Below are positions 16,228-63,015 of a stretch of DNA of 64,000 nt, piece after piece. The notes under the pieces were generated by a model that was not told the DNA's origin, made no database searches, and worked only from the letters and a program-made list of their open reading frames with translations. The DNA is taken from contig NZ_CP030082.1 in NCBI RefSeq assembly GCF_006874645.1, forward strand, positions 1,798,001 through 1,862,000. The letters are read 5' to 3'. The position numbers and the translations under genes were made by a program. This DNA is from Bdellovibrio sp. ZAP7 (GTDB lineage: Bacteria > Bdellovibrionota > Bdellovibrionia > Bdellovibrionales > Bdellovibrionaceae). Within the stretch, counting starts at the first letter, position 1, and each line of letters starts with the position of its first letter.

Positions 16228-16283
16228 TGCACATTTCCATAGAAATAAGGCTAGACCATTGATAGCATCTTTGACAAGTAAAC

Positions 16284-16298: not shown

Positions 16299-16322
16299 AA
16301 ATCAAAAATATTCAGACTGGGT

Positions 16323-21585: not shown

Positions 21586-22794
21586 TTAGGGAACAATTTT
21601 AAGAAAAATATCCCAGACGCGGCCTTTCTTAATGTCGCCTTTTTTAGTTCGGTAAGTAAACTCGCCCGGGCCGACCACCTTAGCATGATTGTTTAGGTCC
21701 TGCGTGGTGTTTTCGTACTTCAAGGAAATGGATTCTACGCCCATATCTTTAAGTGTTTTAATTTCTTTTGCACTGCTTTTACCATCCTGATTGGAGTCTC
21801 TCCAAAGGCGGAGATGAGCCCAGATCGGGTCTTTAGCGTCAATGACTCCATCTTTGTTTTCATCGTAAGCGGCAAGGTTTTTGAAACCATCTTGGTAGTT
21901 ATTAATATCACCGAAGAGCTCGGAGCCTGCGTCGACTTTGCCATTTTTATTCGCGTCATACGTCAACAAGTAGGTTTCGCTCTTAAATGTCGGCCAAGAG
22001 ATCTTATGGGGCTTACCTTCAAACAATGGGAAGTAAGAGGTATCATTAACCACGGGAAGACTCTCGTCGTCGAACTTCAGTACGATCGGGGAGAAGTAAC
22101 CGCCGCAAAAGCGATTTTCACCTGGGAATGATGCAAGCATCGTCAGGGTCTTGCCATTCTCTGAAACATACCATTGGCTAGAGGCCGTCACCGGACCATT
22201 GAACGCCATAAATTGGGAAGGAGTTGTAGCTACTTCCTGTCTGAAGCTGATATCTTTAAGGAATTCAGATTTGACCGCAAATTCAGAAAGCTTTGTAAAG
22301 TCCGTCCCTGAAGCTAAGACGTCAACGGGGATGGTTTTGGCTTCTGAAAGGTTGATGCGAATCAGGTTTCCCTTCAACGATGCATCCAAATGAACCTTCG
22401 CATCGCCATTGACTACCGTATTATTTGTTATATTTTGAGCGGCACCAGCACCATAAGTGTTCATCGTTGCAGTTGCCGGAAATTGGATCTCAACTTGTTT
22501 ATAAGCGCCACTCACAGTCAAGTATCTTAGCTTCGCAAATAGCTGCGAGTACTCGGAGATCGGGTTGGGCACGGAGCGCAGATTCGTTCCAAAGCAACTA
22601 ACATAAATATCGAGTGTAGTAAGGGCTCCGCTAGAGCCGCTTACTACCAATTGCGAATCCAAGACCACGTCATTTAGATTCGGACCTGTGAAAGGCAGAA
22701 CACTTGTCGTTGCAGCTTTTGTATCCGCAGCAAACGCAGATGAACTTAGCAAGGAACTCATTGTAAGGAGTGTTGTTAGGAATTTAGGTGTCAT
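21586..22794 (-). CDS. Secreted EF-hand-like calcium-loop protein of prepilin set A
   Basis: 402 residues. A signal peptide (to about residue 22, ending SAFA) is followed by a beta-rich N-terminal domain with CFGTNLRSVPNP, and a C-terminal module with three DxNxDG loops near residues 280, 311 and 333 (DANKNGKVDAGSELFGD, DENKDGVIDAKD, DSNQDGKSSAKE). The spacing, with SELFGD and LRLW.D between loops, is the EF-hand-like module often seen in secreted RTX-type calcium-binding proteins. The start overlaps the J-like prepilin stop (ATGA). It is homologous to 55663-56934 and 61744-63015 by the shared CFGTNLR, FCGG..SP, LFGD and WDIF/YDIW motifs. A role as a calcium-stabilised partner of the pilin-like complex is inferred. 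Confidence 0.8.
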   Translation of the reverse strand: MTPKFLTTLLTMSSLLSSSAFAADTKAATTSVLPFTGPNLNDVVLDSQLVVSGSSGALTTLDIYVSCFGTNLRSVPNPISEYSQLFAKLRYLTVSGAYKQVEIQFPATATMNTYGAGAAQNITNNTVVNGDAKVHLDASLKGNLIRINLSEAKTIPVDVLASGTDFTKLSEFAVKSEFLKDISFRQEVATTPSQFMAFNGPVTASSQWYVSENGKTLTMLASFPGENRFCGGYFSPIVLKFDDESLPVVNDTSYFPLFEGKPHKISWPTFKSETYLLTYDANKNGKVDAGSELFGDINNYQDGFKNLAAYDENKDGVIDAKDPIWAHLRLWRDSNQDGKSSAKEIKTLKDMGVESISLKYENTTQDLNNHAKVVGPGEFTYRTKKGDIKKGRVWDIFLKIVP

Positions 22795-23828
22795 CTGATG
22801 ACCTCCATACTAATAAGCGGAAGCGTCACTGATTTACGAACTAAAGTGACGGACTTCAAGTCTGAAAGAAGCATGTTTTTATCAACATATTGACCTTGTT
22901 GATAAGTTTGGAAAACCAGATCATATTTGTTAGTCTTCGCATTCAATCGGATGGTCAATCGCGATAAATTAACGGGCTCAACCTTTACGAATGGGGCTGC
23001 GCCCCCCACTGGAGGCAGCGTGCGCAAAAAGATGTCTGCATTATTATAGCTCGCATTCGTTACCGGATGCGTATTTTGAAAATTGACCGATGCCAGTGCT
23101 GGCGTCATAGGGATAAGATCGTTACCCGCAACTCGTCCCAGAAAAGAAGCAAAACGTGGAGCGGTTAAGATATCAATTCCACCAGCGCTATTCAAGGGAC
23201 GCAAGTAAGTTGGGCAGGAGAGCAAGAACAGCTTGCCGTCGGCCCAGCGAGTGGAAAAAACTTTGGTCATAGTGCCCGAGTTCGGACCTCCGGCAGTACC
23301 CGTCACATTCGCTATGGAATTTAGACCCACATATTGAATCGATCCGTTGTTCATGAGGTCCGGCGAATTGCCAGCATTCTTATAAGCAAACATTGGGTCA
23401 TATACCAAAGAGTCAAATTGGTCTTCCTCAGTCTGCAAGAGATAAAAATACTTACCAGGAGTTAAGGTAAACTTTCTTTCCGCAATATTCGCTTTGTTCA
23501 AAGTCGAGTAAGGCACGTCAGGATAGTAGTCATAAAAGTTTTTACCAGTATCATCTGTCATGGAAAGCTTATTGAAACTTGCTGCCGATTTTTTTAGGAT
23601 GTTGACCGTTGCGATATTCAACGTTGAAAGATCCGCCTCGCCCTCAGAACGTGCCGTTTGTTTTTTTAAAGCGGTCGTAAAGTCAGCAATAAACTTGGCA
23701 TTACCCAAGGCCACAACGCCGATCATGCCGACGACAACCATTAATTCAGTAACCGTCATCCCGCGTTTATTATGAAGAGGATTAAATTTAGCTATTTTAC
23801 AGTGATGAAGTAAGTGTACTTTTTCCAC
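22791..23828 (-). CDS. GspJ/PilW-like prepilin, set A
   Basis: 345 residues from GTG 23828, chosen because GGAGG lies 4 bases before it and no later start precedes the cleavage site. A basic leader of about 24 residues ends in KRG, then MTVTELMVVVGMIGVVALG: a class III prepilin signal with Gly at -1 and Glu at +5. A large C-terminal domain follows with no known catalytic motif. The counterparts at 54615-55616 and 60706-61722 share GKNFYDYYPDVPYS-like text, PVGGA/PSVGGG and a C-terminal VTLVRKSV/VLFRRDSV segment. It would be processed by a prepilin peptidase and inserted in the inner membrane before assembly. It overlaps the I-like gene by 37 bases. Confidence 0.82.
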   Translation of the reverse strand: MEKVHLLHHCKIAKFNPLHNKRGMTVTELMVVVGMIGVVALGNAKFIADFTTALKKQTARSEGEADLSTLNIATVNILKKSAASFNKLSMTDDTGKNFYDYYPDVPYSTLNKANIAERKFTLTPGKYFYLLQTEEDQFDSLVYDPMFAYKNAGNSPDLMNNGSIQYVGLNSIANVTGTAGGPNSGTMTKVFSTRWADGKLFLLSCPTYLRPLNSAGGIDILTAPRFASFLGRVAGNDLIPMTPALASVNFQNTHPVTNASYNNADIFLRTLPPVGGAAPFVKVEPVNLSRLTIRLNAKTNKYDLVFQTYQQGQYVDKNMLLSDLKSVTLVRKSVTLPLISMEVIR

Positions 23829-24262
23829 TGATCCTCCTTCCATTTGTTCGCAAGAATGTTTTGGCTTGCGAGGGCGATTTTAATGTCCACCTGATATAAA
23901 TTTCGAACGAATAAACTTGGGATGATAACGTATCCAAAATAGGCCTGGCAGCCATCCTTCGCACATTGAGCTCGCGGAATTAAGTTGCCATTGGAAATTC
24001 CGAAGGGAAGCTTGTCAGCAGCCAGTAACGCATCTTCCTTTTTAACATTGGTTTCAAATGTCACTTGGTACATGGAAAGATTAAAGCGAATGCTTTCAAC
24101 GATCGCTTGAACATTGTCGTTCGCAACACGCGATAGTTTAAGTTGAGAAGTCATATTCGCGACGTAACTGATATAATAATATGTAGAGTAGCTGACGATA
24201 ATGCCGACTGCTACAGCCGCCAATAATTCGATCATTGTGAATCCGCGATTACCGAGTTTCAT
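23792..24262 (-). CDS. GspI/PilV-like prepilin, set A
   Basis: 156 residues. The leader MKLGNRG precedes FTMIELLAAVAVGIIVSYSTYYYIS: a standard prepilin site with Gly -1, Phe +1 and Glu +5, followed by the hydrophobic helix. The globular part has a CAKDGCQAYFGYV motif matching CDRCQGTYGYV and CDTCQGTYGYL in sets B and C, so a conserved Cys pair probably forms a disulfide. It ends with YTYFITVK, like NFIVSAK in the others. It starts one base after the stop of the large K-like gene. Role: minor pilin or pseudopilin joining the tip complex, by analogy with GspI. Confidence 0.85.
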   Translation of the reverse strand: MKLGNRGFTMIELLAAVAVGIIVSYSTYYYISYVANMTSQLKLSRVANDNVQAIVESIRFNLSMYQVTFETNVKKEDALLAADKLPFGISNGNLIPRAQCAKDGCQAYFGYVIIPSLFVRNLYQVDIKIALASQNILANKWKEDQWKKYTYFITVK

Positions 24263-24263
24263 A

Positions 24264-26765
24264 CTATAAACCCTTTCCGCGGCTCACTTCTTTGATCAAG
24301 AAGCGATTAGTTTGTTTTTTACATTTAACCAAAGAATCTTTTGCAGATACAATTCCGCAATCTGGATCCACTGTTGTCCATTTGAAGGGGTCCGATGTTC
24401 TTAAGCTTACAGGATTACAAATCCAGTGCTGGTACCTGTCGTTGACACCGATATTCGATTGCCACAATGGAGCAAGGGTGTTGGAGCAACCTAGGTAGTT
24501 GCCAGCTTTATCCTGGCCTAAGATCTTTGCATTGATAAGTTCTTGAACCGCTTGAGGTTGATAGATGCTGCTCCAACGAATGCCCGCAGTGTAGGCGGTC
24601 GGATGGATATTAAGTTGATTGGTGATGACTGTGCCGATGATACGTAGTGGTTGGGTACGCTGATTGATCGTCAGTTTTTCACAGACAAAGAAGCCGGTGA
24701 TAAAAGTTTGATCTTGTGTGATCACGCAGTTAGCCACCAATGAATCGGTACGGAATCTACCACCGGAAAGATTTACGGTTCCCTCGTTGTAGCCCGGATC
24801 ATTATTGTTAGCATAGGCAGGATTAAACTTCCAGGCGTGACGAGCTTGATCAGCGAAAGATGTATTCCATTTTGCAGCTGGGAACGCAGAATAGTCGGCG
24901 CCAGCATTGCCGGGATCTGGTGAGGCAAAACAACGGTCATCGAACTCCGCCAGATTCGTAGCGATTTCTGAAGGGCGGTGAAGTTTGTCATAATCAGCTT
25001 CATTTGGCATCGGATATTGAGGATCGTCTTGCCCCGTCATACCAGAAAAGTTAACCCATCTTGCCGGCGTCATGCCGTTGGGAAGTGCCCCGGTCAGTAC
25101 CATGGCACTTCCGGACTTTGTAAATGTCACGCCGTTTGTTTTTCTATAAAATTCACTCGTCGTGTTTTGGCGTAAGTTTTCCCCATCCAAGTAACCATAA
25201 TCGTAGGCTTCAAAAAGAAACTTAATACTTGGAGCCGATTTCACGTTGTTGTTAGCGGCACCGTTAGAATACGGTGCAAGATTCGGTTCGCCGTTAAAGG
25301 TAAATTTAAGATCCACTTGGTTGAACTGCTGACGTCCGGCGACGACCAAGGGAGTAGATTGAATGACGATTGAAGCGCCACCCATGCCGGAAGGATAAAG
25401 CGTAACTTGTCCTTCGCGGTGAACGTAAAATTCAGTATAGTAAATTCCGCGGTTTCCGGTTGGGCCTTGAAGGCCGTTATAGTAAACCTTTGCTTTCATG
25501 ATCGGGGTGCCCTGCGCGACAGTTACGGCGGCGTTCGCAAGAACTCCGGGTACATTCGTTTTTGAACTATATCCGTCCACTTGACCTTGTTCGATGAAGT
25601 TGTCGACGTTTCCTAAGTTAAATTGAACTACTGCTTTGTTCGATTCACTTAATGTCGGTCGCACCCACAATTGTGACGTTGTCGTTTGACTCAAATCATA
25701 AGATGCCATGATACGCTTACGGCACATTTTCTGAACGTCGAATACGCTTTCGCTGGCCTTGATGATATTGAACAGGTAATCAAGTCCTGTGTCGCGAGTC
25801 GCATCCAGTTCGAAACCACCTAACATGCCTGAAAAATTCGGCATGCTATAGTTGTACATATAGCCATCGCCGCCGGCCGTTTTCACGATGTAGGGAGCAT
25901 TGTCCATCTTGATGGTACCACCACCAAGAACAACTTTGTCTACAAAGATAACGTTGTTCATTGCTGGAGTTGTGTTGCTTGGAGGAAGACTTAAATCTCC
26001 ATTAATAAAAACCGGACTTTCAAAGCGCAGACCACCATTGGTATTTTGTACGCCAATATTATCCAGGCGGATATTTCCCGTCCCTGCATCGTTAGTTCCA
26101 GAACCCAAATTCAAGTTGTTTGAAACAATCAAAGCGAAATAGGTGAGCTCCCGTGGATAAACGATATTTCTGGAAGTTAAAGTTTGATTTAACTCAGGGT
26201 TGGTTTTGTGCTTCAAGAACACAGTGATTCGTAATGGTACCTCGCGACCACGAACGGCGGAGATGGCTGTGGAATCGCGGTCGATCGTGATGTTGGCAGA
26301 TTCAAATTCGTCAATAATAGGCGTCACCACGGAATAAAGCGGATGGCTGTTCGTCAAAGTGCTGAAATTAATATTACCCGTGATATTCATCAGGCGAGTG
26401 CTTGCCAATGGTTCGGGATGTGGAGTCTCAGAGTTTTTAATGAATAAAAGAGTTTCATCAGAAAGAAGAAGACGTTGAGTATAGCCTGCGTTTGTAAGAC
26501 CACAGTTCATATCCTGCGACCAGTTGGGCGATAAGCACCAGCTCTGTTTAATCGCATTGACCGTATAAGAATAAACCCCATCCAAAACCACCCGGTGGTC
26601 AGTCTTAGTCGCGGCCTTGTTTAATACTTTTGCCTGAGTTTCGATATAGGCAATGGAGGCAAAGAACATAATGCAAATCACCACCCCACCAATCAATGTG
26701 GTGAGGAGCACGGAGCCCTGTTGCGAGCGCAACAATCGCTTATGAAACGCACTTTGCTGGTTCAA
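24264..26765 (-). CDS. Large GspK/PilX-like prepilin protein, set A
   Basis: 833 residues from TTG 26765, chosen because AAAGGGG lies 6 bases upstream and because only then is the leader short. The frame stays open to 26891, but that leader would be 60 residues. The leader ends in RSQQG, then SVLLTTLIGGVVICIMFFASIAYI: a prepilin-like helix with Gly at -1 but Thr, not Glu, at +5, as in GspK/PilX minor subunits. The large body shares with the set B and C proteins YPREL..FAL, a [18 protein letters not shown] region, a WSSIYQPQ segment and a terminal DPFKWTTVDPDCG. It lacks their coiled-coil and Pro/Ser/Thr insertion. Proposed role: tip subunit of a pilus-like fibre. Confidence 0.78.
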   Translation of the reverse strand: MNQQSAFHKRLLRSQQGSVLLTTLIGGVVICIMFFASIAYIETQAKVLNKAATKTDHRVVLDGVYSYTVNAIKQSWCLSPNWSQDMNCGLTNAGYTQRLLLSDETLLFIKNSETPHPEPLASTRLMNITGNINFSTLTNSHPLYSVVTPIIDEFESANITIDRDSTAISAVRGREVPLRITVFLKHKTNPELNQTLTSRNIVYPRELTYFALIVSNNLNLGSGTNDAGTGNIRLDNIGVQNTNGGLRFESPVFINGDLSLPPSNTTPAMNNVIFVDKVVLGGGTIKMDNAPYIVKTAGGDGYMYNYSMPNFSGMLGGFELDATRDTGLDYLFNIIKASESVFDVQKMCRKRIMASYDLSQTTTSQLWVRPTLSESNKAVVQFNLGNVDNFIEQGQVDGYSSKTNVPGVLANAAVTVAQGTPIMKAKVYYNGLQGPTGNRGIYYTEFYVHREGQVTLYPSGMGGASIVIQSTPLVVAGRQQFNQVDLKFTFNGEPNLAPYSNGAANNNVKSAPSIKFLFEAYDYGYLDGENLRQNTTSEFYRKTNGVTFTKSGSAMVLTGALPNGMTPARWVNFSGMTGQDDPQYPMPNEADYDKLHRPSEIATNLAEFDDRCFASPDPGNAGADYSAFPAAKWNTSFADQARHAWKFNPAYANNNDPGYNEGTVNLSGGRFRTDSLVANCVITQDQTFITGFFVCEKLTINQRTQPLRIIGTVITNQLNIHPTAYTAGIRWSSIYQPQAVQELINAKILGQDKAGNYLGCSNTLAPLWQSNIGVNDRYQHWICNPVSLRTSDPFKWTTVDPDCGIVSAKDSLVKCKKQTNRFLIKEVSRGKGL

Positions 26766-26991
26766 ACAATCCCCTTTGTTCCATATTAATATCGGCAGAA
26801 ATGTTCCCTTATGTGAGGAACGGCTGACAAAAAAATCCGACCGTTTTGTCTGGGATTGAGACATAATATTTTTAGGCGTGCTATATGCCATCTGAGGATT
26901 GCGAATAAGTATTCATATTCCGGTCTTGAGGTCGGTTCCTCGATTGAGCTTCCTTGGTAGTCTAAAGAGACCATACAAAAGGGAGGTCCCT
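26766..26991. other. Divergent intergenic region, 226 bases
   Basis: Separates prepilin set A (minus) from a small basic protein gene (plus). Apart from the GCCGATAT element for set A and the GGGAGG ribosome site of the small gene, I see no further gene or strong signal. A minus-strand frame stays open through 26891 but reads as an unlikely leader of the large protein. Confidence 0.5.
26789..26796 (-). promoter_or_regulatory. Sigma-28-like -10 element before set A
   Basis: GCCGATAT on the minus strand, 7 of 8 bases matching the FliA -10 consensus GCCGATAA. It lies 24 bases before TTG 26765, the same distance as CCGATAA elements before sets B and C. No good -35 is seen at the standard spacing, though CATAAGG lies a little further upstream. 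Confidence 0.4.
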
Positions 26992-50918: not shown

Positions 50919-51013
50919 GCTGAAACATTGTTCTCATTATATTCGGAACCTTCTATAAGGATCTGAAAAATCACGACAACTCGCGGATGTTCGTGGTGTC
51001 TTGTTTGTTTTGT

Positions 51014-51021
51014 TCCGATAA
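51014..51021 (+). promoter_or_regulatory. Sigma-28-like -10 element before set B
   Basis: TCCGATAA, 7 of 8 bases of the FliA -10 consensus, 23 bases before ATG 51044. A GTTTG sits upstream, but a -35 at standard spacing is poor. The support is the matching position of similar octamers before sets A and C. Confidence 0.45.
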
Positions 51022-51043
51022 GGAGCGATCAAACGAGGCTTCT

Positions 51044-54000
51044 ATGTCGGTGAAAAACAAGTCAGGGAACGCTATATTGCAGGTGCTTGCCGCGATCGTG
51101 GTTATGGGCATCAGTTTCTATTTCTTGTCGGCCTACGTAATCGCTCAACGAAAACAAATCGTAAAAACTAAAAATGTGGTGACGTTGAAATTCGCAGTGA
51201 ATAGTGCGATGGACTACGTCGTATTCGGTGTTCGTCAAAAGTATTGCTTCGACAACGGAACGATTTTGCAAAACATCGATGCTTGTAATTGGAAGCACGC
51301 AGGGAATGTTGAACGCCTGGTTATGTCAGATGAGCAACTTCAATCTTTAAGAGAGATGGTCGCAGCCGGTGCCAATATCGGACCGCATGATGCCGATATG
51401 AGTAAGCTGCGCCTGGATAAGATTGACCTGATGTTAAACTTTCCGGTCTCTCCAGCACATCCCTTGTTTCCGATCGTGGATGCTTTAAAAACAGTTGTGA
51501 ATGAAACAAACGGTCAAGTGATCAAGGTTAAAGGAATTCACATCGTACTTAATCGTCCTGAAAACAGTGGCTATTTACCCAAGGCAGGACGCGAAGTTTA
51601 CATAATGGCCGAAGCTTCGTTATTAGATGATGGCAACGAAGTGATCCAAGTGGGACGCGTACCTTTAAGTGTTCGATCACAGATTGCGATTTATCCCCGG
51701 GAAATGGGTTCCTTCGCTTTGGTGCTGCCTAAGGATCTTCATATGGATCAGTCGTGGAATGCATCTACGACAAACGGCGACGTGATTCTTCACAAGTTTA
51801 ATGACCGAGCCTCACTCGGTACAAGCACGGGGCTTGTCTTTAATAGTCCGGTGTTTGTGAACGGTAACATCTATTTACCGAATGACACCGGAGATGCAGG
51901 GACTTCGAACTATGCTGCGGTTACATTTGCAGACCGAGTTTATATGGGGAATGGGTGGATATTAAAGTCCGACGGAAATCCCTATGCTCCTGCGACCCTG
52001 GGTGGCTTGCCAGACCGGTATTGGTCGGACTCTCGCGTGTTTGGTGGTTTTTTAAATGGAATTGAAAATGACGGAAGTTCTGATGCCGGATTGGAAGTGA
52101 TGTCTGGGCAAGTGAGTAATTTGCCCGCCGGCGATTTTGACTGGAATCGTATTTGTGCCGATTATAATAAAAAGACAGTCGACATTGGCACCATGAAAGT
52201 TTCTAAGATCAAAGCAAAAATGGTTGATGATTCAACTGACGGTTCCACGCAAAAATCCAAATATAAAATTACTTTGAGTAACTATAATCAGTACTATCCG
52301 CAAAAAAATCCGATTCCAGCTCCGAATGTTGAAAAGTGGAAGCCGGGGACAGCCTCTGTCACGAATATTAATAAGTATGGTGATGCAACGACCACGGGGG
52401 CAGTAACTTCCATCATTCTGGCCTACGGGATTGGATCAGACTATCGCGAAGTGATATTTGATATGACGAAATACGGGACAGCTGTTTTGCAGCCGCAGGT
52501 TGTAAATGAAGATCGTCGTAAAAATTTGGAAGCGGCTCTTAAAGAAGCTAACGATACGATCAATAAGTCCTCTGACAAAACGAATGCTCTGCAATCTGAT
52601 TTAAATAAATCGAATACTGATTTAGCCGCTGCAAATACAGATTTAGCAAAAAAGAAAGATGAATTGAATGCAGAATTGGCAAAACCAGTTTACGCAAGCC
52701 CTTCTCCGAGTCCGACCGTAAGTCCAAGCCCCACGGCAAGTCCGAGTGCCAGCCCAACTGTGAGTCCTTCTCCGACGGCTTCACCATCTGTATCTCCGAC
52801 CGTATCTCCTTCGGTAACTCCGACAGCGTCGGCCAGTGTGACTCCTTCACCATCAGCGACAACAAGTCCTTCTCCAAGTCCTTCTCCAACTCCAACTCCG
52901 ACAGCAACCGTGGGAGATCCATCCCTGTATCAAAATCCTGATACGATAGCTAAGCTGAACCAGGAGATCGATGCTTTAAACAAAAAGATCAATGATCTGC
53001 AGGCGCATATTGCTGATTTAAAAAATGTTCAGATTCCAGCGAATGATAAAAACAATTCGGAAGCAAAGGCCACTGTGTCTTCAGCTACAGCGGCCCTGGC
53101 CGATTATCAGCAAATGATCGACAATCCTCCGAAATTTACGATTGAGATGGATGCGATGAAAACGGGAAGTGGTCGTGAATATCTGGACCGCGCCTATTTA
53201 TCTGTGAACCTAACAAATGCAGCTAACTTACGCGACACTGATGGAAATAAGATCACCGTTTTTTCGGTCCGTTTTAAAGCCTATGATGGAACTTATTGGA
53301 ATAGTATACCGGTTGCGCCCGATGCAAACAGCCCCACGCATTTGCTTGGTTATCTCAATTATTCTATTGATAGTGCTGGTAATATCACAAGACCTTCGGG
53401 GCTTTCTGCCACAGCTAACACCTCTGGCACAGAAGAAGATGAGTCCGGTAATTCAACCGACATTGCGCAAGCCTGTGAAGATTTTTACGACAACATGAAC
53501 TCTCAATCCTTCGGAGCCGCAAACTGGGGAACAAGCTTTGCCGGAGGTACACGTTCTTCATGGAATTTTGCGGGTGTTGATAGTTCCGTTCCTAAAGAAA
53601 AGGGACACGAAAGTGAACCGATCTTGGAAGAAAGAATATTTAATTCAGACAGTACTGAATTCTTAGTGAATTCCATCGTTGGAAATTGTGTCATTAAAGC
53701 CGGTACAAACTTTGTCACGGGTTTTTATACTTGTGACAATTTGACTATCGAGGGTGGACGTACGAAGCCTCTGACAATCATTGGGACTTTTATCATTGGT
53801 AAGACTTTGAAAATCAATGAACAGGCCATTCGTATCGGAATTCAGTGGAGTAGCATTTATCATCCGCAATCTACGCGTATCTTGCGTTCACGAAAAATTT
53901 TGAAACCCATGACTGAGCCAGATAACGTCGCGAAGTGTGATAATTTACCATCTCCCATTTGGCATCCCATTCCTTCCATTCAAGAAACTGCAGATCGCAT

Positions 54001-54169
54001 GGCTTGTAACGTGATCAGTCTGCGTGCGAAGGCGGATCCTTTCAAGTGGACGGCGGTGGATCCTGATTGTGGAGTGGATCCGGCAAAACAACAGACAGTT
54101 CCAACATGCAAACGTCGTATTATTCGTTATTTCGTGGTTGAGCAATCCAGAGAAGGGTTGGGAATGTAA
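51044..54169 (+). CDS. Large GspK/PilX-like prepilin protein, set B
   Basis: 1041 residues from ATG 51044 with GAGG 5 bases before it. A short leader ends in KNKSG, then [24 protein letters not shown], with Gly -1 but Gln at +5 instead of Glu. The body (to about 487) matches sets A and C. A predicted helix (about 488-549), a Pro/Ser/Thr/Ala-rich run (about 552-623) and a second helix (about 629-694) follow, then a conserved C-terminal region ([47 protein letters not shown]). Proposed: tip subunit of a pilus-like complex, exposed outside and possibly adhesive. It overlaps the next gene by one base. Confidence 0.8.
52697..52913 (+). repeat. Pro/Ser/Thr/Ala-rich coding micro-repeat, set B
   Basis: Short degenerate DNA repeats of the type TCTCCGAGTCCG or ACTCCGACAGC encode about 72 residues of almost only Pro, Ser, Thr, Ala and Val (for example [13 protein letters not shown]). 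It is flanked by two helical segments and is absent from set A. Such repeats can change length by slippage. Confidence 0.85.
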
Positions 54170-54618
54170 TGAAAAAACTTAATTCTCGGGGACAAACAAT
54201 AGTTGAATCTCTGGTGGCGTTGGGATTGATTTCCTTTATCGGTCTTATCTTTTTTGGTGGTTTGGTGCAGCTTCGTAAAACGACGTCTGATAGTTTGCTG
54301 GATTCCGCTACGGATAGGCAGATTGCTGATATCGCTGAAAACATCAAGGCGGGCGTACAAAAGTACCAGGTGAATTTCAATCTTGATAAAGCAGCGCTAG
54401 AAACTTTATTAAAGCCGGAAAATCTTCCCATGGTGTGGGATGTCGGTGTGGTGGCTGAAAAAGGTCAGTGTGATCGATGTCAGGGAACCTATGGGTATGT
54501 CATTCAGCCTTTCGACAAGTATCGGGGTCTTTACATGGTGACCCTTCGTCTTTCACATAAAAGCTGGCTCCCGCATGAGACCTATCGTGACTACAACTTT
54601 ATAGTGAGTGCGAAGTGA
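54169..54618 (+). CDS. GspI/PilV-like prepilin, set B
   Basis: 149 residues. The leader MKKLNSRG precedes QTIVESLVALGLISFIGLIFFGGL, giving Gly -1 and Glu +5. The short globular part has a CDRCQGTYGYV motif, probably a disulfide, and ends NFIVSAK. The start overlaps the large protein's stop by one base, so the subunits are made together. It is close to the set C counterpart (60251-60709) over its whole length. Confidence 0.87.
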   Translation: MKKLNSRGQTIVESLVALGLISFIGLIFFGGLVQLRKTTSDSLLDSATDRQIADIAENIKAGVQKYQVNFNLDKAALETLLKPENLPMVWDVGVVAEKGQCDRCQGTYGYVIQPFDKYRGLYMVTLRLSHKSWLPHETYRDYNFIVSAK

Positions 54619-55616
54619 TGTTTAGAAATCAAAAAGGCTTAACTTTAGTGGAAATGATGCTCGGGATCGGTTTATTCGCGATCGTGATTTCTATTATTGT
54701 TTCAGTTCAGGTGAAAATGTCTCAACAACAGGTCGAGATGATTAGAAAACTGGATGATTCCGTTGATCAGCATTTGGCTGAAAGGATCCTATTCAAAGAT
54801 TTAAGTGGCATCGATATTTCCTACAATAATCTTATCGTTAAAGACGACCATGGAAATAACTTTTATGATTTTTATCCCGATATCACAGAGAACATTTTAA
54901 AAGTTCGGGCCGATCGCGAATTGAATTTAAAGCTAGGTGGGAAGGATTCATTTTTCGTTTTCTCTCAAAATTCAGCGGCAGGCCCACTTTTAACCTATGA
55001 CCCTATGTGGGCCTATGATGTCGGTCCAGAACCCGCAGATCCAAATACTCCAGCAACACTGGAATTCAATGGTGAAAAAAATAGGAAATGGATTTCAAAT
55101 GAAAGTAATGGCGGTCGTCCTGGCTTTTGGAAAGTCGGGCACCTTTTGTTTTATGATACTCCCAGCCGTATTCGTCCCAGTGTTGGGGATGTCATTGATA
55201 AAACGATTCCACCACGAAGTTCATTTTATTTGGGCGCTGTTATTTCTGGAAGCGATCTTTTACAAAATGTTTCAGGTGAGGCTGCAGGGCTTTTTAATAT
55301 GACTGAACCAGACAGCGGGGATGCGATCCCGAGCCTTGACGGTTTTTTAAGAAATGTACCTTCTGTGGGGGGCGGTCAGACGGTGGTGCGTGTGCGTGCT
55401 GCTAGACTTGTAAAGTATTACATCGAACCTGATACGAAAAAAAATGCAGATCTTTATAAGCTTGCTCCAGCGAATTTTTTTATGGCGGAGTATCGCGATG
55501 GTCAGTTTGAAAAGCCCACATTGCTTGCTGACGGTGTGGGGCGAGTTTTGTTTCGTCGTGATTCAGTGGTCAAAAAAATGATTTACTTCAAAATTGAAAA
55601 AGCAGAGTTGAAATAG
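54615..55616 (+). CDS. GspJ/PilW-like prepilin, set B
   Basis: 333 residues from GTG 54615; ATG 54618 is an equal alternative. The leader ends RNQKG, then LTLVEMMLGIGLFAIVISIIVS, with Glu +5. The globular domain includes GNNFYDFYPDITENIL, RKWISNESNGGRPGFWK, LLFYDTPSRIRPS, PSVGGGQTVVRVR and VLFRRDSV near the end. It matches the set C protein closely and set A more weakly. It overlaps the preceding gene by four bases. Expected to be cleaved by a prepilin peptidase and assembled with its two partners. Confidence 0.87.
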   Translation: MMFRNQKGLTLVEMMLGIGLFAIVISIIVSVQVKMSQQQVEMIRKLDDSVDQHLAERILFKDLSGIDISYNNLIVKDDHGNNFYDFYPDITENILKVRADRELNLKLGGKDSFFVFSQNSAAGPLLTYDPMWAYDVGPEPADPNTPATLEFNGEKNRKWISNESNGGRPGFWKVGHLLFYDTPSRIRPSVGDVIDKTIPPRSSFYLGAVISGSDLLQNVSGEAAGLFNMTEPDSGDAIPSLDGFLRNVPSVGGGQTVVRVRAARLVKYYIEPDTKKNADLYKLAPANFFMAEYRDGQFEKPTLLADGVGRVLFRRDSVVKKMIYFKIEKAELK

Positions 55617-55662
55617 AATGAATTTGGATAGTTCAGGACGTTTTTTGCGCAAGGGGAGCGTT

Positions 55663-56934
55663 ATGAAAAAAAGTATTTGCTTGATAGCTATCGTCGCGTG
55701 GTATTCCGCAGTTGCTCACGCTGATCAAGCGTCCGTGGTGACGGTCGGTAAAGACGTACCTATGGCGGTCAACTCTGTTTCCACTGGTGAATCCCTATCG
55801 GGTGCTCCAGCCTCTGGAACAGTGACTCGTTCGGGAAAAAGCACCATGACAGTTCGCTTGATCAACTCCTGCTTTGCAACGAATTTGCGGGCGGTTTCAA
55901 ATCCGTTGGCGAAAAGCTCGCTGATTAATGCTGATATCGATATCATGGTGGGTGGTACCAAGTACCATCTGTTTGCAGAATATCCCGCTGCCCTCGTGGG
56001 TGCTGGCGGAAGTGGTGTTCCAGCTTCTGGGACCGTGTCGAACTTTAATGCTTCTAAAGCCAGTGTCGATCCTGTCGGGGGGACCGTTTCGGCGTTTGGT
56101 AATATTGTCGAATTCAGAACGAAAATACCTACGGCGGTTACCGTTGATAATGAAGCTAATATCACGATTTCGAAAGATTCAGTTTCTTTAGGAAAGATGT
56201 CTTTCCTGCAAACGGTTCAAGACTGCAATGCGGGACCTGTGTTTGGTGATTATGGTTGGTCATCTAAAATGCCGACTTATAAATGTGGTGCATTCATGGG
56301 GAAAGACGGGGATATAACCGCAACATTTGGTGGTTTTAACGTTGCTCCCGACCGTTCCTTGGTTGAACTTTTCATCAGCTTTCCGGGCGAGACGGGTTTT
56401 TGTGGAGGGTTCTGGTCACCGTTGATGGTATTCTTTGATGATAAACTTCCTAAGTTTAATACTCTTTCTGATTTCCCTTTAAACCCAGGGGGAAAAGTCT
56501 ATTGGCCAGATGCAAAGAGCCCTGGATTTTTTCTGGCGATGGATCGCGATCGCAACGGAAAGATCGATCAAAAGGATGAACTTTTTGGTGATAACAATTC
56601 GGCTATTAATGGCTTTGAGTCTTTGAAGAAACTCGATAGCAATCATGATGGTTTCATTGATGCTAAAGACAAAGACTTTGCAAAATTAGTCTTATGGAAT
56701 GACGAAAATGCAGATGGTATCAGTCAACCTCGGGAACTGACAAAAGCAGGATTGAAACTTACTAGAATTTCTTTGAAATACCGTGTGAGTGCAGAAAGTT
56801 TAGGAAACGCGGAAATTCGCGAGCGTGCAAAGTTCTGGTACACCGATTCGAAAGGAAAGGTGCGCGCGGGTAATATTTATGACATTTGGCTTGCACCTCA
56901 TATTCCGAGCCGTCTTGCAGAAACGAAATTATGA
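55663..56934 (+). CDS. Secreted EF-hand-like calcium-loop protein, set B
   Basis: 423 residues from ATG 55663, which has AAGGGGAG upstream and gives the same length as the set C protein; a frame open from 55618 adds a leader. The signal peptide ends near AVAHA. Shared N-terminal text with set C is VPMAVNSVSTGES, GAPASGTVTRSG, then CFATNLRAVSNPLAKSSL. Three calcium loops start near residues 294, 325 and 347 (DRDRNGKIDQKDELFGD, DSNHDGFIDAKD, DENADGISQPREL). It should act outside the cytoplasm, probably with the pilin-like subunits encoded just before it. Confidence 0.83.
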   Translation: MKKSICLIAIVAWYSAVAHADQASVVTVGKDVPMAVNSVSTGESLSGAPASGTVTRSGKSTMTVRLINSCFATNLRAVSNPLAKSSLINADIDIMVGGTKYHLFAEYPAALVGAGGSGVPASGTVSNFNASKASVDPVGGTVSAFGNIVEFRTKIPTAVTVDNEANITISKDSVSLGKMSFLQTVQDCNAGPVFGDYGWSSKMPTYKCGAFMGKDGDITATFGGFNVAPDRSLVELFISFPGETGFCGGFWSPLMVFFDDKLPKFNTLSDFPLNPGGKVYWPDAKSPGFFLAMDRDRNGKIDQKDELFGDNNSAINGFESLKKLDSNHDGFIDAKDKDFAKLVLWNDENADGISQPRELTKAGLKLTRISLKYRVSAESLGNAEIRERAKFWYTDSKGKVRAGNIYDIWLAPHIPSRLAETKL

Positions 56935-57140
56935 GATGACAGGTCTCATGAAGAGACGTTTCCTATATTAGGATTTCAGTGCAAATTTTGAAATGTCTTT
57001 AAATGAAACAGAAGGACGTTTTTATTGATACAAAAGTGCGCAGATACTTAGCGTAATTACCTAAAATTCCTTGAAAAGTCCGGTTGTTCCATAAGGTTTG
57101 TCGGGTTCTTTACCGATAAGTTCTCACAGGAGCCATCGGT
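56935..57140. other. Intergenic region between sets B and C, 206 bases
   Basis: Holds a weak hairpin straddling the set B stop (ATGAGA 56931-56936 with TCTCAT 56944-56949, no T tract) and the sigma-28-like promoter of set C at 57092-57119. No small gene is seen. Confidence 0.55.
57092..57119 (+). promoter_or_regulatory. Sigma-28 (FliA)-like promoter of set C
   Basis: TAAGGTTT (57092-57099), 12-base spacer, ACCGATAA (57112-57119). The consensus is TAAAGTTT, 11 bases, GCCGATAA, so each element matches 7 of 8 with one extra spacer base. The start codon is 22 bases further on, preceded by AGGAG. Confidence 0.6.
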
Positions 57141-60100
57141 ATGTTTATGAAAACGAGTAAACAAAAAGGTAACGCAATTCTGCAGGTGCTTACCGCTATC
57201 GCGGTCATGAGCATTAGTTTTTATTTCCTGTCTGCGTACGTTATCTCTCAACGAAGACAAGTAGTTAAAACTAAAAACGTAGTAAACCTAAAATTCGCAG
57301 TAAATAGCGCGATGGACTACGTGGTGTTTGGTATCCGTCAAAAGTATTGCTTTGATAATGGATCACTTTTGCAAAACACCACCAGCTGCGACTGGAACAA
57401 CCCAGGTAACGTCGAACGTTTGGTGATGTCAGATGAACAGTTGGCATCCCTTAAGGGAATGGTGGCTGCTGGCGCGAATATTGGTCCCCATGATTCCAAT
57501 TTGGATAAATTACGCCTTGATGCCATTGATATGACATTGAACTTTCCGGTGTCCTCAGCCCATCCCTTATTTCCGGTCGTGAACAATTTGAAACGTGTCG
57601 TGGATGAGCAAACGGGTAAAGAAATTCCCGTTCAAGGTATTCGTATGTATTTGAGTCGTCCAGCTAACTCCGGTTATTTGCCGAAAGCGGGACGTGAAGT
57701 TTACATCTCGGCACAGATTTCATTGATCGATAAAAACAAAACGGTCATCCAAATCGGAAGTGCACCTCTTGAAGTGCGTGCGCAAATCGCTATCTATCCA
57801 CGCGAGCTAGGTTCCTTTGCGCTGGTTCTTCCCGGTGACCTTCGCATGGACCGTACGTGGGATTCCGTTCCGCCGAAAAATGGCGACGTTATTTTCCATA
57901 AATTTGCAAACAAAGCAACCATGGGCACAAGCCCCGGCATGATTTTTAAAAGCCCCGTTTTCGTAAACGGTAACATCAACTTACCTGTGGATAGCGGCAA
58001 TGCTTCTAACTCGAACTACGCTGGCGTAACCTTTGCGGATCGCGTGTACATGGGGAATGGTTGGATTTTAAAACCCGACAACTCTCCGTATAATCCACCA
58101 ACTCAGGGTGCACTTCCTGACCGTTATTGGTCTGATTCCCGCGTGTTTGGCGGTTTCCTAAGAGGTATCGAAAACGATGGTATGCGTGACTTGGGTCTTG
58201 ACGTTATGTCAGGAACTGCCAGTGGCTCATCTGGTACTGAATTTGACCTTAATAAGATTTGTGCGGAACTTAATCAAAAAAGTACACAACTTGAATCCAT
58301 GGAGGCGTCTAATATTAAGGCCACTCCTGGAACGAATCCAGACGACCCATATCGTGTTGTTCTTACGAATTACAATACGTTCTATCCTCAAAAAAATCAG
58401 TTGCCGTCTCCAACCACGTCAGGAGACTGGAGTACTGGTAAGTGGTCTGTTGATAATAAGAATAAGTTAACGGGTGCTATTATGAACGTTGAATTTTCAT
58501 ACGGTACAGGTGCTGATGCCCGTTCATTTAGTGTCGATCTGGTTAAGGACGGGAATGTTACAATTTACCCTCCTGTTCTAAATCCAGCGAGAAAAGCAGC
58601 AATCGTCGCAAGCTTAAATCAGGCTAACACTGATTATAAGAACGCAAAAAATGCAGACACATCGAATGCAGATAGCTTAACTAAGCTAAAAAATAAGTTA
58701 AATACCGCAGAATCGGAGTTAAGAAATTTAGAAGATCAATTAGATGCAGAGCAAGCGAAGCCAGTGGAGCCAGTGGCAACACCGTCTCCTTCACCGACGG
58801 CTACGGCAACAGTTTCGCCAAGTCCGACGGCAACAGCTACGGCAACGGCATCTCCGACTGCCACGGCTTCACCGACAGCTTCACCGACAGCTTCACCGAC
58901 AGCAACAGCTACGGCATCTGCTTCGCCGACAGCGACAGCGTCGGCTTCTCCAACAGCAACAGCCTCGGCTTCTCCAACAGCCACAGCAACAGCAAGTGCT
59001 ACAGCATCACCAACAGTTTCTCCGACAGTGACACCTCCTCCAGGTGGGTACCAGGATTCAGATAAGATCAAAGACTTAAAGACTCAGATTTCAGTCAAAA
59101 AATCGGAAATTTCTGATTTGAAAAATCAGATCAGTGCTGCTGAAACAAATTCGACGAATTATTCCAAGGCCATGACAGACGCCCAAAATAATATTGCGAA
59201 GTATACGGCACAGCTTGATGCCTATACGGCTTTGGAAAAAAATCCTCCGTCATTCGAAATTGACTTGGACAAAGCTTACAGCTGGACAGGAAAAGAATAT
59301 AAAGATCGTCTGGATGTTTTTATCAGTATCAATAATGGGTTGTACCTAATGAACAGTGCGGGTGTCCGTATTGCTGATTTCTCAATTCGTCTTAAAGGTT
59401 ACGACGGTACTTACTTTAATAGTATTCCGGTCCGTTCAACAGCGGATCCCGCCCATCTGCGTGGTTATTTAAACTACCATATCGGAGCTAGTGGTAATAT
59501 CACTCGTCCTACCGGTCTTTCCTCAACGTCTTCAGCAGGTGTTACGTCCGATGAGACGGCAGATATGGCTGCAAAGTGCGAAGACTACTATAATATGATT
59601 AACTCCCAGTCTTTCGGTGCTGCGAACTGGGGTGTGAGCTTCTCTCCAGGTACAAGAAAATCTTGGAACTTCGCAGGTGATTTGAACGCGACCGCGGCTG
59701 ACCCTGTGGTGCCAACAAGAGTTTGGCAAGTCGATGATCAAGACTTCTATGTTCGCTCGATCGTTAAAGACTGCGTGATTACTCCTAAGGCGAACTTTGT
59801 GGCTGGATTCTATACTTGTGACAACTTGACGATCCAAGGCGGTCGTACGAAACCATTGCGCATCATCGGTACCTTTATCATTGGTAAGACTCTGAAAATC
59901 GATGAACAGGCGATTCGCACGGGTATCGTTTGGAGCAGTATCTACTATCCTCAGGCGACTCAAGAATTGAGAGAGCGTGGAATTTTGCATCCATTATCAG
60001 AGCCTAGCAATATTACGAAATGTGATAATTTGCCGTCACCGATCTGGCATCCGATGCCGTCTATCCAAGAAACAGCGGATCGTATGGCTTGTAACGTGAT

Positions 60101-60254
60101 CAGTTTACGCGCGAAAGCAGATCCATTTAAGTGGACAGCAGTGGATCCGGATTGTGGTATCCCGGTAGGGGCGACACAAACCGTTCCGACTTGTAAACGT
60201 CGTATCTACCACTATTTCGTTGTCGAGCAGTCTAGGGAAGGTTCAGGACTATGA
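57141..60254 (+). CDS. Large GspK/PilX-like prepilin protein, set C
   Basis: 1037 residues from ATG 57141 with AGGAG 8 bases upstream. The leader ends SKQKG, then [24 protein letters not shown], Gln at +5. The N-terminal 480 residues are very close to set B ([63 protein letters not shown]). A helix (about 484-540), a Pro/Thr/Ala/Ser run (about 545-635) and another helix (about 639-698) follow, with little sequence in common with set B in this insert. The C terminus ([35 protein letters not shown]) is again strongly conserved. It overlaps the next start by four bases. Confidence 0.8.
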   Translation: MFMKTSKQKGNAILQVLTAIAVMSISFYFLSAYVISQRRQVVKTKNVVNLKFAVNSAMDYVVFGIRQKYCFDNGSLLQNTTSCDWNNPGNVERLVMSDEQLASLKGMVAAGANIGPHDSNLDKLRLDAIDMTLNFPVSSAHPLFPVVNNLKRVVDEQTGKEIPVQGIRMYLSRPANSGYLPKAGREVYISAQISLIDKNKTVIQIGSAPLEVRAQIAIYPRELGSFALVLPGDLRMDRTWDSVPPKNGDVIFHKFANKATMGTSPGMIFKSPVFVNGNINLPVDSGNASNSNYAGVTFADRVYMGNGWILKPDNSPYNPPTQGALPDRYWSDSRVFGGFLRGIENDGMRDLGLDVMSGTASGSSGTEFDLNKICAELNQKSTQLESMEASNIKATPGTNPDDPYRVVLTNYNTFYPQKNQLPSPTTSGDWSTGKWSVDNKNKLTGAIMNVEFSYGTGADARSFSVDLVKDGNVTIYPPVLNPARKAAIVASLNQANTDYKNAKNADTSNADSLTKLKNKLNTAESELRNLEDQLDAEQAKPVEPVATPSPSPTATATVSPSPTATATATASPTATASPTASPTASPTATATASASPTATASASPTATASASPTATATASATASPTVSPTVTPPPGGYQDSDKIKDLKTQISVKKSEISDLKNQISAAETNSTNYSKAMTDAQNNIAKYTAQLDAYTALEKNPPSFEIDLDKAYSWTGKEYKDRLDVFISINNGLYLMNSAGVRIADFSIRLKGYDGTYFNSIPVRSTADPAHLRGYLNYHIGASGNITRPTGLSSTSSAGVTSDETADMAAKCEDYYNMINSQSFGAANWGVSFSPGTRKSWNFAGDLNATAADPVVPTRVWQVDDQDFYVRSIVKDCVITPKANFVAGFYTCDNLTIQGGRTKPLRIIGTFIIGKTLKIDEQAIRTGIVWSSIYYPQATQELRERGILHPLSEPSNITKCDNLPSPIWHPMPSIQETADRMACNVISLRAKADPFKWTAVDPDCGIPVGATQTVPTCKRRIYHYFVVEQSREGSGL
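58774..59045 (+). repeat. Pro/Thr/Ala/Ser-rich coding micro-repeat, set C
   Basis: About 90 residues of ASPTA/TATAS-type repeats encoded by short units such as TCACCGACAGCT and TCTCCAACAGCAACAGC. Blocks repeat almost exactly (for example around 58870-58905 and 58936-58980), suggesting recent expansion. It is longer than the set B run and different in unit. Confidence 0.87.
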
Positions 60255-60709
60255 TTAAAAAATCACTTCTTCAACAATCAAAAGGTCAATCCATCGTTGA
60301 AGCACTGGTTGCTTTAGGTCTGATCTCGGTGATCGGTCTGGCTTTTACGGGTGGACTGGTGCAGCTACGTAATACTTCAAGATCGAGCTTGCTGGCTTCT
60401 GCGACAGATCGTCAGGTGTCAGATATTTCCGAGAACATCAAAGCCGGAGTTCAAGACTATCAAGTGAACTTTGACTATGATCCTTCCCAAATCGATACCT
60501 ACCTGGCTTTGAACAATCTTCCAATGCAGTGGGATGTGGGCCGAGTTGCAGCCAAAGGGCAGTGCGATACTTGTCAGGGAACTTATGGATATTTGATTCA
60601 GCCGTATGAAAAATATCGTGGTCTTTATTTAGTGACCTTACGTATGACTCATAAAAGCTGGTTGCCTGAGAAATTTAGAGACTACACATTCGTGGTGAGT
60701 GCAAAATGA
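60251..60709 (+). CDS. GspI/PilV-like prepilin, set C
   Basis: 152 residues. The leader ends QQSKG, then QSIVEALVALGLISVIGLAF, Gly -1 and Glu +5. The soluble part shares with set B: ATDRQVSDISENIKAGVQ, MQWDVG, CDTCQGTYGYL and FVVSAK at the end. It overlaps both neighbours by four bases (ATGA-type), so the three pilin-like subunits are strictly coupled. Confidence 0.87.
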   Translation: MIKKSLLQQSKGQSIVEALVALGLISVIGLAFTGGLVQLRNTSRSSLLASATDRQVSDISENIKAGVQDYQVNFDYDPSQIDTYLALNNLPMQWDVGRVAAKGQCDTCQGTYGYLIQPYEKYRGLYLVTLRMTHKSWLPEKFRDYTFVVSAK

Positions 60710-61722
60710 TGATTCGAAATCAAAAGGGTCTATCACTAGCAGAGCTTCTGGTCGGGATAGGATTATCCGCGGTGGTTATTTCTGTTGTCGTTGCAGTGCA
60801 GGTCCAAATCACGAAAGAGCAAACAAAATTGACAAGACAACTGGACGATTCCATCGACCAGAATCTTGCCGAGCGTATTACATTTAAAAATCTAAATGGT
60901 GTGGAAGCTTCTTATAATAACATCGTCGTCAAAGACGATAACGGGAACAACTTTTACGATTATTACCCTGATATCACCGAAAATGTTCTAACTGGTAAAA
61001 CTGACCGTGATTTTACATTAATCTACTCTGGCAAAAGAGCATTTTACGTTGTCACTCAGGATATGGGAGCAGGGCCTCTTTTAACTTACGATCCGGTATG
61101 GGCGTATATCATCGGTACGGATCCTGGGGATCCCAATAAACCAGCGTCTCTTACTTTTAGTCCCGCGAATAACAGAAAATGGATTTCTAACGAAGCCAAT
61201 GGCGGACGCCCCGGGTTTTGGCGAGATGGAAATCTATTGATGTACGATACTCCAAGTCGCATTCGTCCTGCACCAGGGGGCGTGATAGATATGAAGATTC
61301 CACCACGCAGCCCCATCTATGTAGGCTCAGTTTCTACGGCAGCAGGTGATTCGTTGCAGGGATTGAATAATGAAGCAGCAAGCTTATTTAAGAATACACA
61401 ACCGTATAATGGTAAAGTGATTGATAGTTTAGATACGTTTTTACGTACCCTTCCATCTGTGGGTGGGGGACAAACTATCGTCCGTACAAGAGTTATTAAA
61501 ATCGCAAAATACTATGTTGAAATCGATGACAAGAAAAAGGCCAGCGAGTATCGCACGACGCCTTTAAATCTGTATGTCACAGAATACAGAAACGGCGGTT
61601 GGGAAAAACCGACGTTGCTTGCGGACGGGGTGGAAAAAATGATTTTCCGCCGCGATTCAGTCTTAAAAAGAATGATTTATTTTAAAATTTTTAAAGCGGA
61701 AAGATTAGACGGACAAAACTAG
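60706..61722 (+). CDS. GspJ/PilW-like prepilin, set C
   Basis: 338 residues (ATG 60706; ATG 60709 also possible). The leader ends RNQKG, then LSLAELLVGIGLSAVVISVVVA, Glu +5. Shared features with set B: GNNFYDYYPDITENVL, RKWISNEANGGRPGFWRDG, YDTPSRIRPAPGG, PSVGGGQTIVRTR, MIFRRDSVLKRMIYFKI. It lies between the I-like prepilin and the EF-hand gene, 21 bases from the latter. Confidence 0.87.
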   Translation: MMIRNQKGLSLAELLVGIGLSAVVISVVVAVQVQITKEQTKLTRQLDDSIDQNLAERITFKNLNGVEASYNNIVVKDDNGNNFYDYYPDITENVLTGKTDRDFTLIYSGKRAFYVVTQDMGAGPLLTYDPVWAYIIGTDPGDPNKPASLTFSPANNRKWISNEANGGRPGFWRDGNLLMYDTPSRIRPAPGGVIDMKIPPRSPIYVGSVSTAAGDSLQGLNNEAASLFKNTQPYNGKVIDSLDTFLRTLPSVGGGQTIVRTRVIKIAKYYVEIDDKKKASEYRTTPLNLYVTEYRNGGWEKPTLLADGVEKMIFRRDSVLKRMIYFKIFKAERLDGQN

Positions 61723-61743: not shown

Positions 61744-63015
61744 ATGAAAACAATAGCTATTTTGGGAGGCGCGCTGGTCTTGTTGACTTCCAGTGCTTTT
61801 GCAGACCAAAACAACGTTGTGACAGTCAGTAAAGACGTGCCGATGGCAGTGAACTCGGTGAGTTCCGGGGAATCCGTTGTCGGAGCTCCAGCTTCTGGAA
61901 CAGTCACGCGGTCCGGCCGAGAAACGATGACGGTGCGTCTAGTGAATTCATGTTTCGGTACGAACCTTCGTGCTGTGACAAATCCACTGGCGAAGAGCTC
62001 ACTCATCACCGCAGATATTAATATTCTGGTCGGTGCCACAAACTATAATCTGGGTGTTGAGTATCCAGCCGTTATCGTAACTCCGGAAGGTACCGGGAAT
62101 GTCGGTAACGGTAGCGTGGGCAACATTAAAGCCTCTAAGGTAAGAATGACCCCGGCCGGCGGTACAGCTGCGGTCTACGGGAATATCGTTGAGTTTAAAA
62201 CGAAAATTCCTACGGGCGTGACAGTCGATAACCAAGCAAATATCTCCGTTTCAAAATCAAATGTTTCTTTAGGGAATATGAGTTTTGAGCAAGAGATCTT
62301 GGACTGTAAAACGGGCCCGGTTTTCGGGGATTATGGTTGGTCATCAAAAATGCCAACCTATGGTTGCGGAGACTTCATGGGTAAGGACGGAACCGTTACA
62401 GCCACTATTGGTGGCTTCAACGTTTCTCCAGACCGCTCGACAGTTGAAATCTTCATCAGCTTCCCAGGTGAAACAGGTTTTTGCGGCGGTTATTGGTCAC
62501 CTCTAATGGTGTTCTTTGATGACAACTTGCCAAAGTTTGAAAACGTAAGTTCATTTCCTCTGAATCCAGGCGGAAAAGTGTATTGGCCGAATGCCAATCA
62601 TCCAGGGTTTTTCTTAGCGATCGACCGCGACAAAAACGGCATGATCGATAAGAAAGACGAGCTTTTTGGGGACAACAACACGGCGATCAATGGTTTTGAA
62701 TCCTTGAAGAAATTCGATTCCAATAAAGACGGCGTGATTGATGCCAAGGATAAAGAATTTAAACGCTTGGTGCTTTGGAAAGACATCAACGGTGACGGCG
62801 TTTCCCAAAAAGGTGAACTGACGAAGGCCGCTTTGAAATTGGATAAGATTTCTTTGAACTATGAAAACTACGAGGAAGCTCGCGGTAAAAACGCTGAGAT
62901 TCGCCAGCGTGCGAAGTTCTGGTATACCGATGCCAAAGGTAAAAAGAAAACTGGAAACGTTTACGATATTTGGTTTGCACCGTATATCCAAACGAATCTC
63001 GCTGACACCAAATAG
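61744..63015 (+). CDS. Secreted EF-hand-like calcium-loop protein, set C
   Basis: 423 residues. The signal peptide ends near SSAFA. N-terminal domain as in set B (VPMAVNSVSSGES, CFGTNLRAVTNPLAKSSL, a VFGDYGWSSKMPTY motif, FCGGYWSP). Calcium loops start near 294, 325 and 347 (DRDKNGMIDKKDELFGD, DSNKDGVIDAKD, DINGDGVSQKGEL). A strong GGGGG site precedes the ATG. The stop codon directly abuts that of the convergent thioredoxin-like gene, and the terminator lies within the latter. Confidence 0.85.
   Translation: MKTIAILGGALVLLTSSAFADQNNVVTVSKDVPMAVNSVSSGESVVGAPASGTVTRSGRETMTVRLVNSCFGTNLRAVTNPLAKSSLITADINILVGATNYNLGVEYPAVIVTPEGTGNVGNGSVGNIKASKVRMTPAGGTAAVYGNIVEFKTKIPTGVTVDNQANISVSKSNVSLGNMSFEQEILDCKTGPVFGDYGWSSKMPTYGCGDFMGKDGTVTATIGGFNVSPDRSTVEIFISFPGETGFCGGYWSPLMVFFDDNLPKFENVSSFPLNPGGKVYWPNANHPGFFLAIDRDKNGMIDKKDELFGDNNTAINGFESLKKFDSNKDGVIDAKDKEFKRLVLWKDINGDGVSQKGELTKAALKLDKISLNYENYEEARGKNAEIRQRAKFWYTDAKGKKKTGNVYDIWFAPYIQTNLADTK

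Follow-up and report, generated by a model that had tools for sequence, protein, structure and literature searches.

Two tandem genes of a predatory bacterium encode very large proteins, here called B and C, which are probably tip pilins resembling GspK and ComZ, carry a predicted antiparallel coiled-coil stalk ending in an exchangeable disordered apex, and probably form a pilus-tip complex with the products of neighbouring genes. They lie in a 64,000-nucleotide stretch (the window; positions 1,798,001-1,862,000 of one contig) of the 4.12 Mb genome of Bdellovibrio sp. ZAP7, genus Bdellovibrio. The window contains three homologous cassettes, A on the minus strand and B and C in tandem on the plus strand, each with the same gene order: the large protein, then two pilins, one PilV-like and one PilW-like, and lastly a secreted protein that matches EF-hands weakly. 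An initial annotation, made from the sequence alone, had described an insert in the large proteins of B and C and had read it as a coiled-coil stalk with a flexible end loop, projecting from the tip. This interpretation is partly supported, as regards the stalk and the loop. Projection from the tip is suggested by the resemblance to the tip pilins ComZ and GspK.

A predicted hairpin with constrained arms and a variable apex

Between the same alignment columns the insert spans 219 residues in B and 233 in C, against 13 in A, where the two base strands are directly joined (GQVTLYP-SGMGGAS-IVIQ). Its presence in B and C but not in A, as initially annotated, is therefore confirmed, and so is its layout of helix, Pro/Ser/Thr/Ala-rich loop and helix, by AlphaFold2 and by loop composition. 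Describing the flanks as close to identical was an overstatement: B and C are 59% identical overall, 66% and 69% in the larger N- and C-terminal flanking regions, and only 30-37% over the 40 residues that adjoin the insert on each side. The view that the insert ends are alike in layout and not in sequence fits the arms, which are 28-29% identical between B and C, but not the loop-proximal arm ends, which are conserved genus-wide (...E-AKPV, loop, Y[QR][DN]...I..L). The residue numbers first given for B fit if the protein begins at the internal ATG at 51044.

The AlphaFold2 models were built as single chains, from an alignment of 17 sequences for C (predicted template modelling score, pTM, 0.45) and of 10 sequences for a fragment of B (pTM 0.59). 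They predict helices of 57-62 residues on both sides of the loop (Table 1). In C, base strands are placed at residues 472-476 and 704-713, and the predicted local distance difference test (pLDDT) is below 50 over loop residues 543-635. We judged helix pairing by structural alignment to solved structures with a second aligner, and not from coordinates; absence from a list of matches was not taken as evidence against any fold. The hairpin of colicin E3, an antiparallel coiled coil (2b5u; Z 11.0, 132 residues, 2.3 Å), aligns with residues 479-703 of C, as does that of colicin E9. Both helices of B align to Helicobacter pylori HP0958 (3na7; Z 12.3, 115 residues, 2.5 Å), to colicins E9 and E3, and to other hairpins. 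In these models the antiparallel pairing of two helices of similar length is well supported for both proteins. The C model also matches immunoglobulin-like domains over residues 389-783 (Z about 4-5), which suggests a beta-sandwich domain with the hairpin as one of its turns, extended. Some helical Pfam families (phage scaffold, MscS porin, PUMA_CC) matched weakly, in every case below cut-off, which we read as no more than a sign of helical heptads. A sequence search of the PDB returned almost only low-complexity matches to circumsporozoite repeats.

The arms and the loop were compared in 25 Bdellovibrio homologues of the B/C type, one representative per species. Arm 1 has 57 residues in 17 homologues, 64 in seven and 56 in one; arm 2 has 66 or close to it, and 73 or 72 in the same seven homologues that have the longer arm 1. 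These seven form one well-supported clade that includes the window. The additional heptad or so fits best at a distance from the apex of about 29 residues in arm 1 and about 24 residues in arm 2, suggesting that the extra residues lie nearly opposite each other in the antiparallel pair; the matched lengthening is suggestive and not statistical, because it represents one evolutionary event. The paralogues of the Bd2726 type, named after a gene of Bdellovibrio bacteriovorus HD100, have a hairpin of 119-124 residues in total, close to 57 plus 66, without a loop. Mean hydrophobicity has a period of 3.5-3.6 in the aligned arms (p 0.029 and 0.007) and in the loopless paralogues (p 0.0003 and 0.010). 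Comparison of the homologues thus gives good support to the stalk as the constrained part of the insert, with arms of nearly fixed length. The coiled-coil stalk with a flexible end loop is borne out by the models of B and C, the alignment to solved hairpins, the fixed arms with their matched change, and the loopless paralogues of matching total length.

The loop is a different matter. Proline, serine, threonine and alanine make up 84% of the B loop (over 82 residues) and 90% of the C loop (over 97), far from chance. Among the homologues its length ranges from 12 to 97 residues, some orthologous loops having only 12-14, and the short ones fall into three separate parts of the tree (genomes G003 with G013; G009; G004). 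Composition also varies: loops are rich in Pro/Ser/Thr/Ala in the window genome, G022, G011 and G019, in Gly/Thr or Gly/Ser in HD100, G023 and G002, and in Ser/Thr in G018, G001 and G020. In the comparison with the nearest relative, G022, the 22 gap columns of B and the 14 of C all fall inside the loops and none elsewhere. The aligned loop residues of this pair are nevertheless 89-91% identical despite many synonymous codon changes, so the loop composition looks maintained. An insert constant across strains had initially been named as an observation that would speak against this interpretation; across species it is not constant, and between close relatives only loop length differs. From models and alignments, a loop that is intrinsically disordered and variable in length and chemistry is well supported.

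Pro/Ser/Thr runs similar to the loop occur in other, mostly exported-looking proteins of the window genome, including four unrelated ones: a 711-residue protein with a CxxCH motif, a 367-residue lipoprotein-like protein, a RodZ-like protein and a 162-residue cytochrome-like protein (L005, L006, L007 and L008, respectively). In the window itself, a 1105-residue protein resembling tetratricopeptide-repeat proteins (38198-41515, minus strand) ends in a long Pro/Ala/Ser/Thr-rich tail.

We considered protein A as the ancestral insert-free state and dropped this idea, since distant relatives (G041, G055, G056) have hairpins and hairpin-free forms occur in more than one place. Judging from the sequences, loss of the hairpin in A appears at least as likely as ancestral absence.

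Resemblance to pilus-tip proteins and link to predation

The N-terminus of C is of the prepilin type, with a short leader ending in Gly, a long hydrophobic helix (predicted at residues 9-66) and Gln replacing Glu at position 5; the Pfam N_methyl domain gave no match in the large proteins of the cassettes. ComZ, the tip pilin of the competence pilus of Thermus thermophilus (6QVI), is likewise described as a very large pilin without the usual pilin sequence features (PMC6561018, available text). Residues 67-1001 of C match it (6qvi_A; Z 8.5, 189 residues, 3.9 Å), a weak similarity, near background, from a model of modest pTM. Solenoids of ice-binding proteins are among the structural matches of the C model, and the ComZ solenoid is itself reported to match an ice-binding protein (PMC6561018, same text). 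The proteins also differ, as the available text of PMC6561018 describes no coiled-coil hairpin for ComZ, and we have no evidence of DNA binding by B or C. GspK, the tip pseudopilin of type II secretion, shares with B and C its place in a trio with two smaller pilins and an insert in the pilin sheet, according to the same source. This likeness is by description, and the insert of GspK forms a helical domain within the pilin fold rather than a long hairpin on a beta-sandwich. Another predator offers a further parallel: in the Kil pili of Myxococcus, KilL, KilM and KilN place a large pilin and two smaller ones at the tip, and KilN4 combines two long helices with a beta-scaffold (PMC12075869, where a B. 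bacteriovorus tip is also modelled). Kil pili are of the Tad type, however, whereas the PilW-like protein of the window cassette has a type IV N-methylation motif.

The receptor-binding hairpin of colicins E3 and E9 (2B5U, 7NSU) is an antiparallel coiled coil of similar length that superposes at 2.0-2.3 Å over 128-132 residues. Its apex is a tight turn and not a disordered loop. The translocation and cytotoxic Pfam domains of colicins were not found in B or C. The likeness is one of resemblance only, and B and C are pilin-like proteins, not colicin-type bacteriocins.

The closest counterparts are the four-gene cassettes Bd2209-Bd2212 and Bd2723-Bd2726 of B. bacteriovorus (PMC12034629). The cassettes of genome G006 allow product lengths of 995/153/328/414 and 901/162/325/384, which are those published for Bd2212-Bd2209 and Bd2726-Bd2723, and HD100 position 2110823, published as lying in Bd2212 (PMC3013116), falls inside the G006 match at 2110075-2113059. 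Product lengths and coordinate, together with gene order and tree, identify the sequences of cassettes B and C as of the Bd2212-Bd2209 type of HD100. Compared with HD100, which has one cassette of this type and one of the Bd2726 type, the window genome has two tandem cassettes of the Bd2212 type plus the hairpin-less cassette A. Most other Bdellovibrio carry the Bd2212 and Bd2726 types, and two genomes (G016, G035) are mixtures. The Bd2726 type gave no match in the genomes with A-type and Bd2212-type cassettes (G000, G022, G011, G021, G010).

Both HD100 cassettes have been predicted to form four-protein complexes, and the transposon screen by Duncan et al. is stated to have connected Bd2210, Bd2211, Bd2212 and Bd2723 with loss of predation (PMC12034629, available text). 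The complex is thus already known as a prediction; the coiled-coil hairpin and the loop variation are not discussed in that text, and our literature search for coiled-coil stalks in pilins found no relevant paper. Bd2210 is the PilW-like gene of the HD100 cassette, and its transposon mutant (Bd2210::tn) is deficient in attachment, killing and rounding, the attachment defect having been confirmed by microscopy (PMC6561027). A host-independent isolate has a Ser-to-Phe change in Bd2212, at HD100 position 2110823, among its listed differences (PMC3013116).

Possible roles of the hairpin

The reading that we favour is as follows. B and C, with their PilV-like, PilW-like and EF-hand partners, would form the tip complex of an attack-phase Bdellovibrio pilus. 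The insert would be an antiparallel coiled-coil hairpin that grows from one turn of an immunoglobulin-like beta-sandwich domain and ends in an intrinsically disordered loop; were its two arms helical throughout, 57 residues at 0.15 nm each would give it a length of about 8.5 nm. The stalk would be constrained, and the loop a replaceable flexible cap or spacer, free to change in length and chemistry, which may serve in spacing or contact during prey attachment. Location at the tip, outward projection and a role in contact are suggested by the pilin content of the cassettes, the resemblance to ComZ and GspK, and the attachment phenotype in HD100.

Several points weigh against this reading. The alignments behind the models are shallow, the pTM values modest, the models single chains, and the pairing does not come from coordinates or an error matrix. 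Foldseek found no match in the PDB at E <0.001 for either model, so that the structural matching rests wholly on the second aligner. Coiled coils match many unrelated hairpins; Z values below 13 therefore point to a common arrangement rather than to kinship. The match to ComZ lies near background, the seven-residue change seen in both arms is a single event, and hydrophobic-moment tests on single sequences were mostly not significant, the periodicity requiring averaging over the aligned family. Finally, the hairpin might not point outward from a tip and could instead dock onto a partner of the complex.

This last point leads to the strongest rival, which we consider unlikely: the hairpin would be an internal element docking partner subunits (the EF-hand or PilW-like protein), and the loop a loose connection drifting neutrally. 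It fits the published AlphaFold-Multimer model, which places the large protein at the hub of the other three operon products (PMC12034629, available text), the similar runs in other exported-looking proteins, which look like generic linker material, and the existence of orthologues with 12-14-residue loops and of paralogues with none. It does not sit well, however, with the genus-wide conservation of the loop-proximal arm ends, with long loops that stay rich in Ser/Thr or Gly, or with the maintained composition between the window and G022. Moreover, the arms of B and C have diverged far more than the main flanks, which is unexpected for a conserved docking face with similar partners.

Two further explanations seem to us quite improbable, both of them concerning the apex. 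The Ser/Thr-rich loop might be O-glycosylated and act as a mucin-like cap, shielding or modulating the tip, given the high Ser/Thr content of nearly all long loops and the two membrane proteins with a Wzy_C domain in the window genome, but this domain also marks O-antigen polymerases and ligases and does not discriminate (matches in 9 of 14 control genomes), Ser/Thr is nearly lacking in the orthologues with short loops, except in G004, and several orthologous loops are Gly-rich. A search of the window genome for PglL_A gave no match, and the controls gave none either. Equally doubtful is the idea that the loop serves for recognition or as a decoy, varying to match prey or escape phage, as a contingency locus changing by repeat slippage: wide variation in length and composition, 12- to 30-bp repeats in C and the confinement of gaps to the loop would fit, but the repeats are not perfect copies, only one draft genome has an interrupted frame (one TAG, in G013), so that there is no sign of on-off switching, and the same residue vocabulary occurs in unrelated proteins of the genome.

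If the coiled-coil stalk with an exchangeable apex is correct, a more general idea can be put forward tentatively. Bdellovibrio tip pilins could combine a standardised coiled-coil mast, near-fixed to the residue, with an interchangeable disordered cap, tuned by lineage, at the first contact with prey, which would set them apart from other type IV filament tips as a distinct modular design. First attachment of Bdellovibrio to prey is still poorly understood. The hairpin and its apex loop make up a discrete, removable element in the largest protein of an attachment-linked cassette, the fixed stalk and freely changing loop offer a way to tell the part that holds the contact from the part that makes it, and the natural short-loop and loopless versions are ready comparisons.

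The cassettes and other features of the window

Of 56 homologous cassettes, nearly all those with enough contig have their four genes in the same order. A gene for a His-rich cation transporter precedes cassette B, as in HD100.

Table 1. Features of cassettes A, B and C and of the hairpins, in window positions (ORF, open reading frame)
Feature	Position	Strand	Basis
Large tip-pilin-like protein B, 1060 residues, probable true start 51044	50987..54169	+	ORF; orthologue family of HD100 Bd2212
B helix 1 of predicted hairpin, residues 508-564	52508..52678	+	AlphaFold2 of B fragment, pLDDT mostly 85-98
B apex loop rich in Pro/Ser/Thr/Ala, residues 565-650	52679..52936	+	pLDDT about 40-46 over most; composition
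B helix 2 of predicted hairpin, residues 651-712	52937..53122	+	AlphaFold2 of B fragment, pLDDT mostly 85-98
PilV-like minor pilin, cassette B	54169..54618	+	Position and homology in nearly all homologous cassettes; weak N_methyl match below cut-off
PilW-like minor pilin, cassette B	54615..55616	+	N_methyl PF07963 above cut-off; conserved neighbour
Secreted EF-hand-like protein, cassette B	55618..56934	+	Weak EF-hand matches below cut-off; conserved neighbour
Large tip-pilin-like protein C, 1037 residues	57141..60254	+	ORF; AlphaFold2
C helix 1 of predicted hairpin, residues 482-538	58584..58754	+	AlphaFold2 pLDDT 84-92
C apex loop rich in Pro/Ser/Thr/Ala, residues 539-639	58755..59057	+	pLDDT about 26-41 over most; imperfect 12- to 30-bp DNA repeats
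C helix 2 of predicted hairpin, residues 640-700	59058..59240	+	AlphaFold2 pLDDT 84-92
PilV-like minor pilin, cassette C	60251..60709	+	Domain search; conserved neighbour
PilW-like minor pilin, cassette C	60706..61722	+	N_methyl match just below cut-off; conserved neighbour
Secreted EF-hand-like protein, cassette C	61744..63015	+	Weak EF-hand matches; conserved neighbour
Large protein A, same family, without hairpin	24264..26891	-	Alignment and junction
PilW-like protein, cassette A	22791..23843	-	Domain search; conserved neighbour
Fourth-gene (EF-hand-family) homologue, cassette A	21586..22794	-	Conserved cassette position

Elsewhere in the window, 276-bp tandem repeats at 1-1202 correspond to repeated HAMP-like units in a large sensor kinase, and at 12667-20737 there is a cluster of three large membrane proteins, encoded in both orientations, whose C-terminal parts resemble spermidine synthase.

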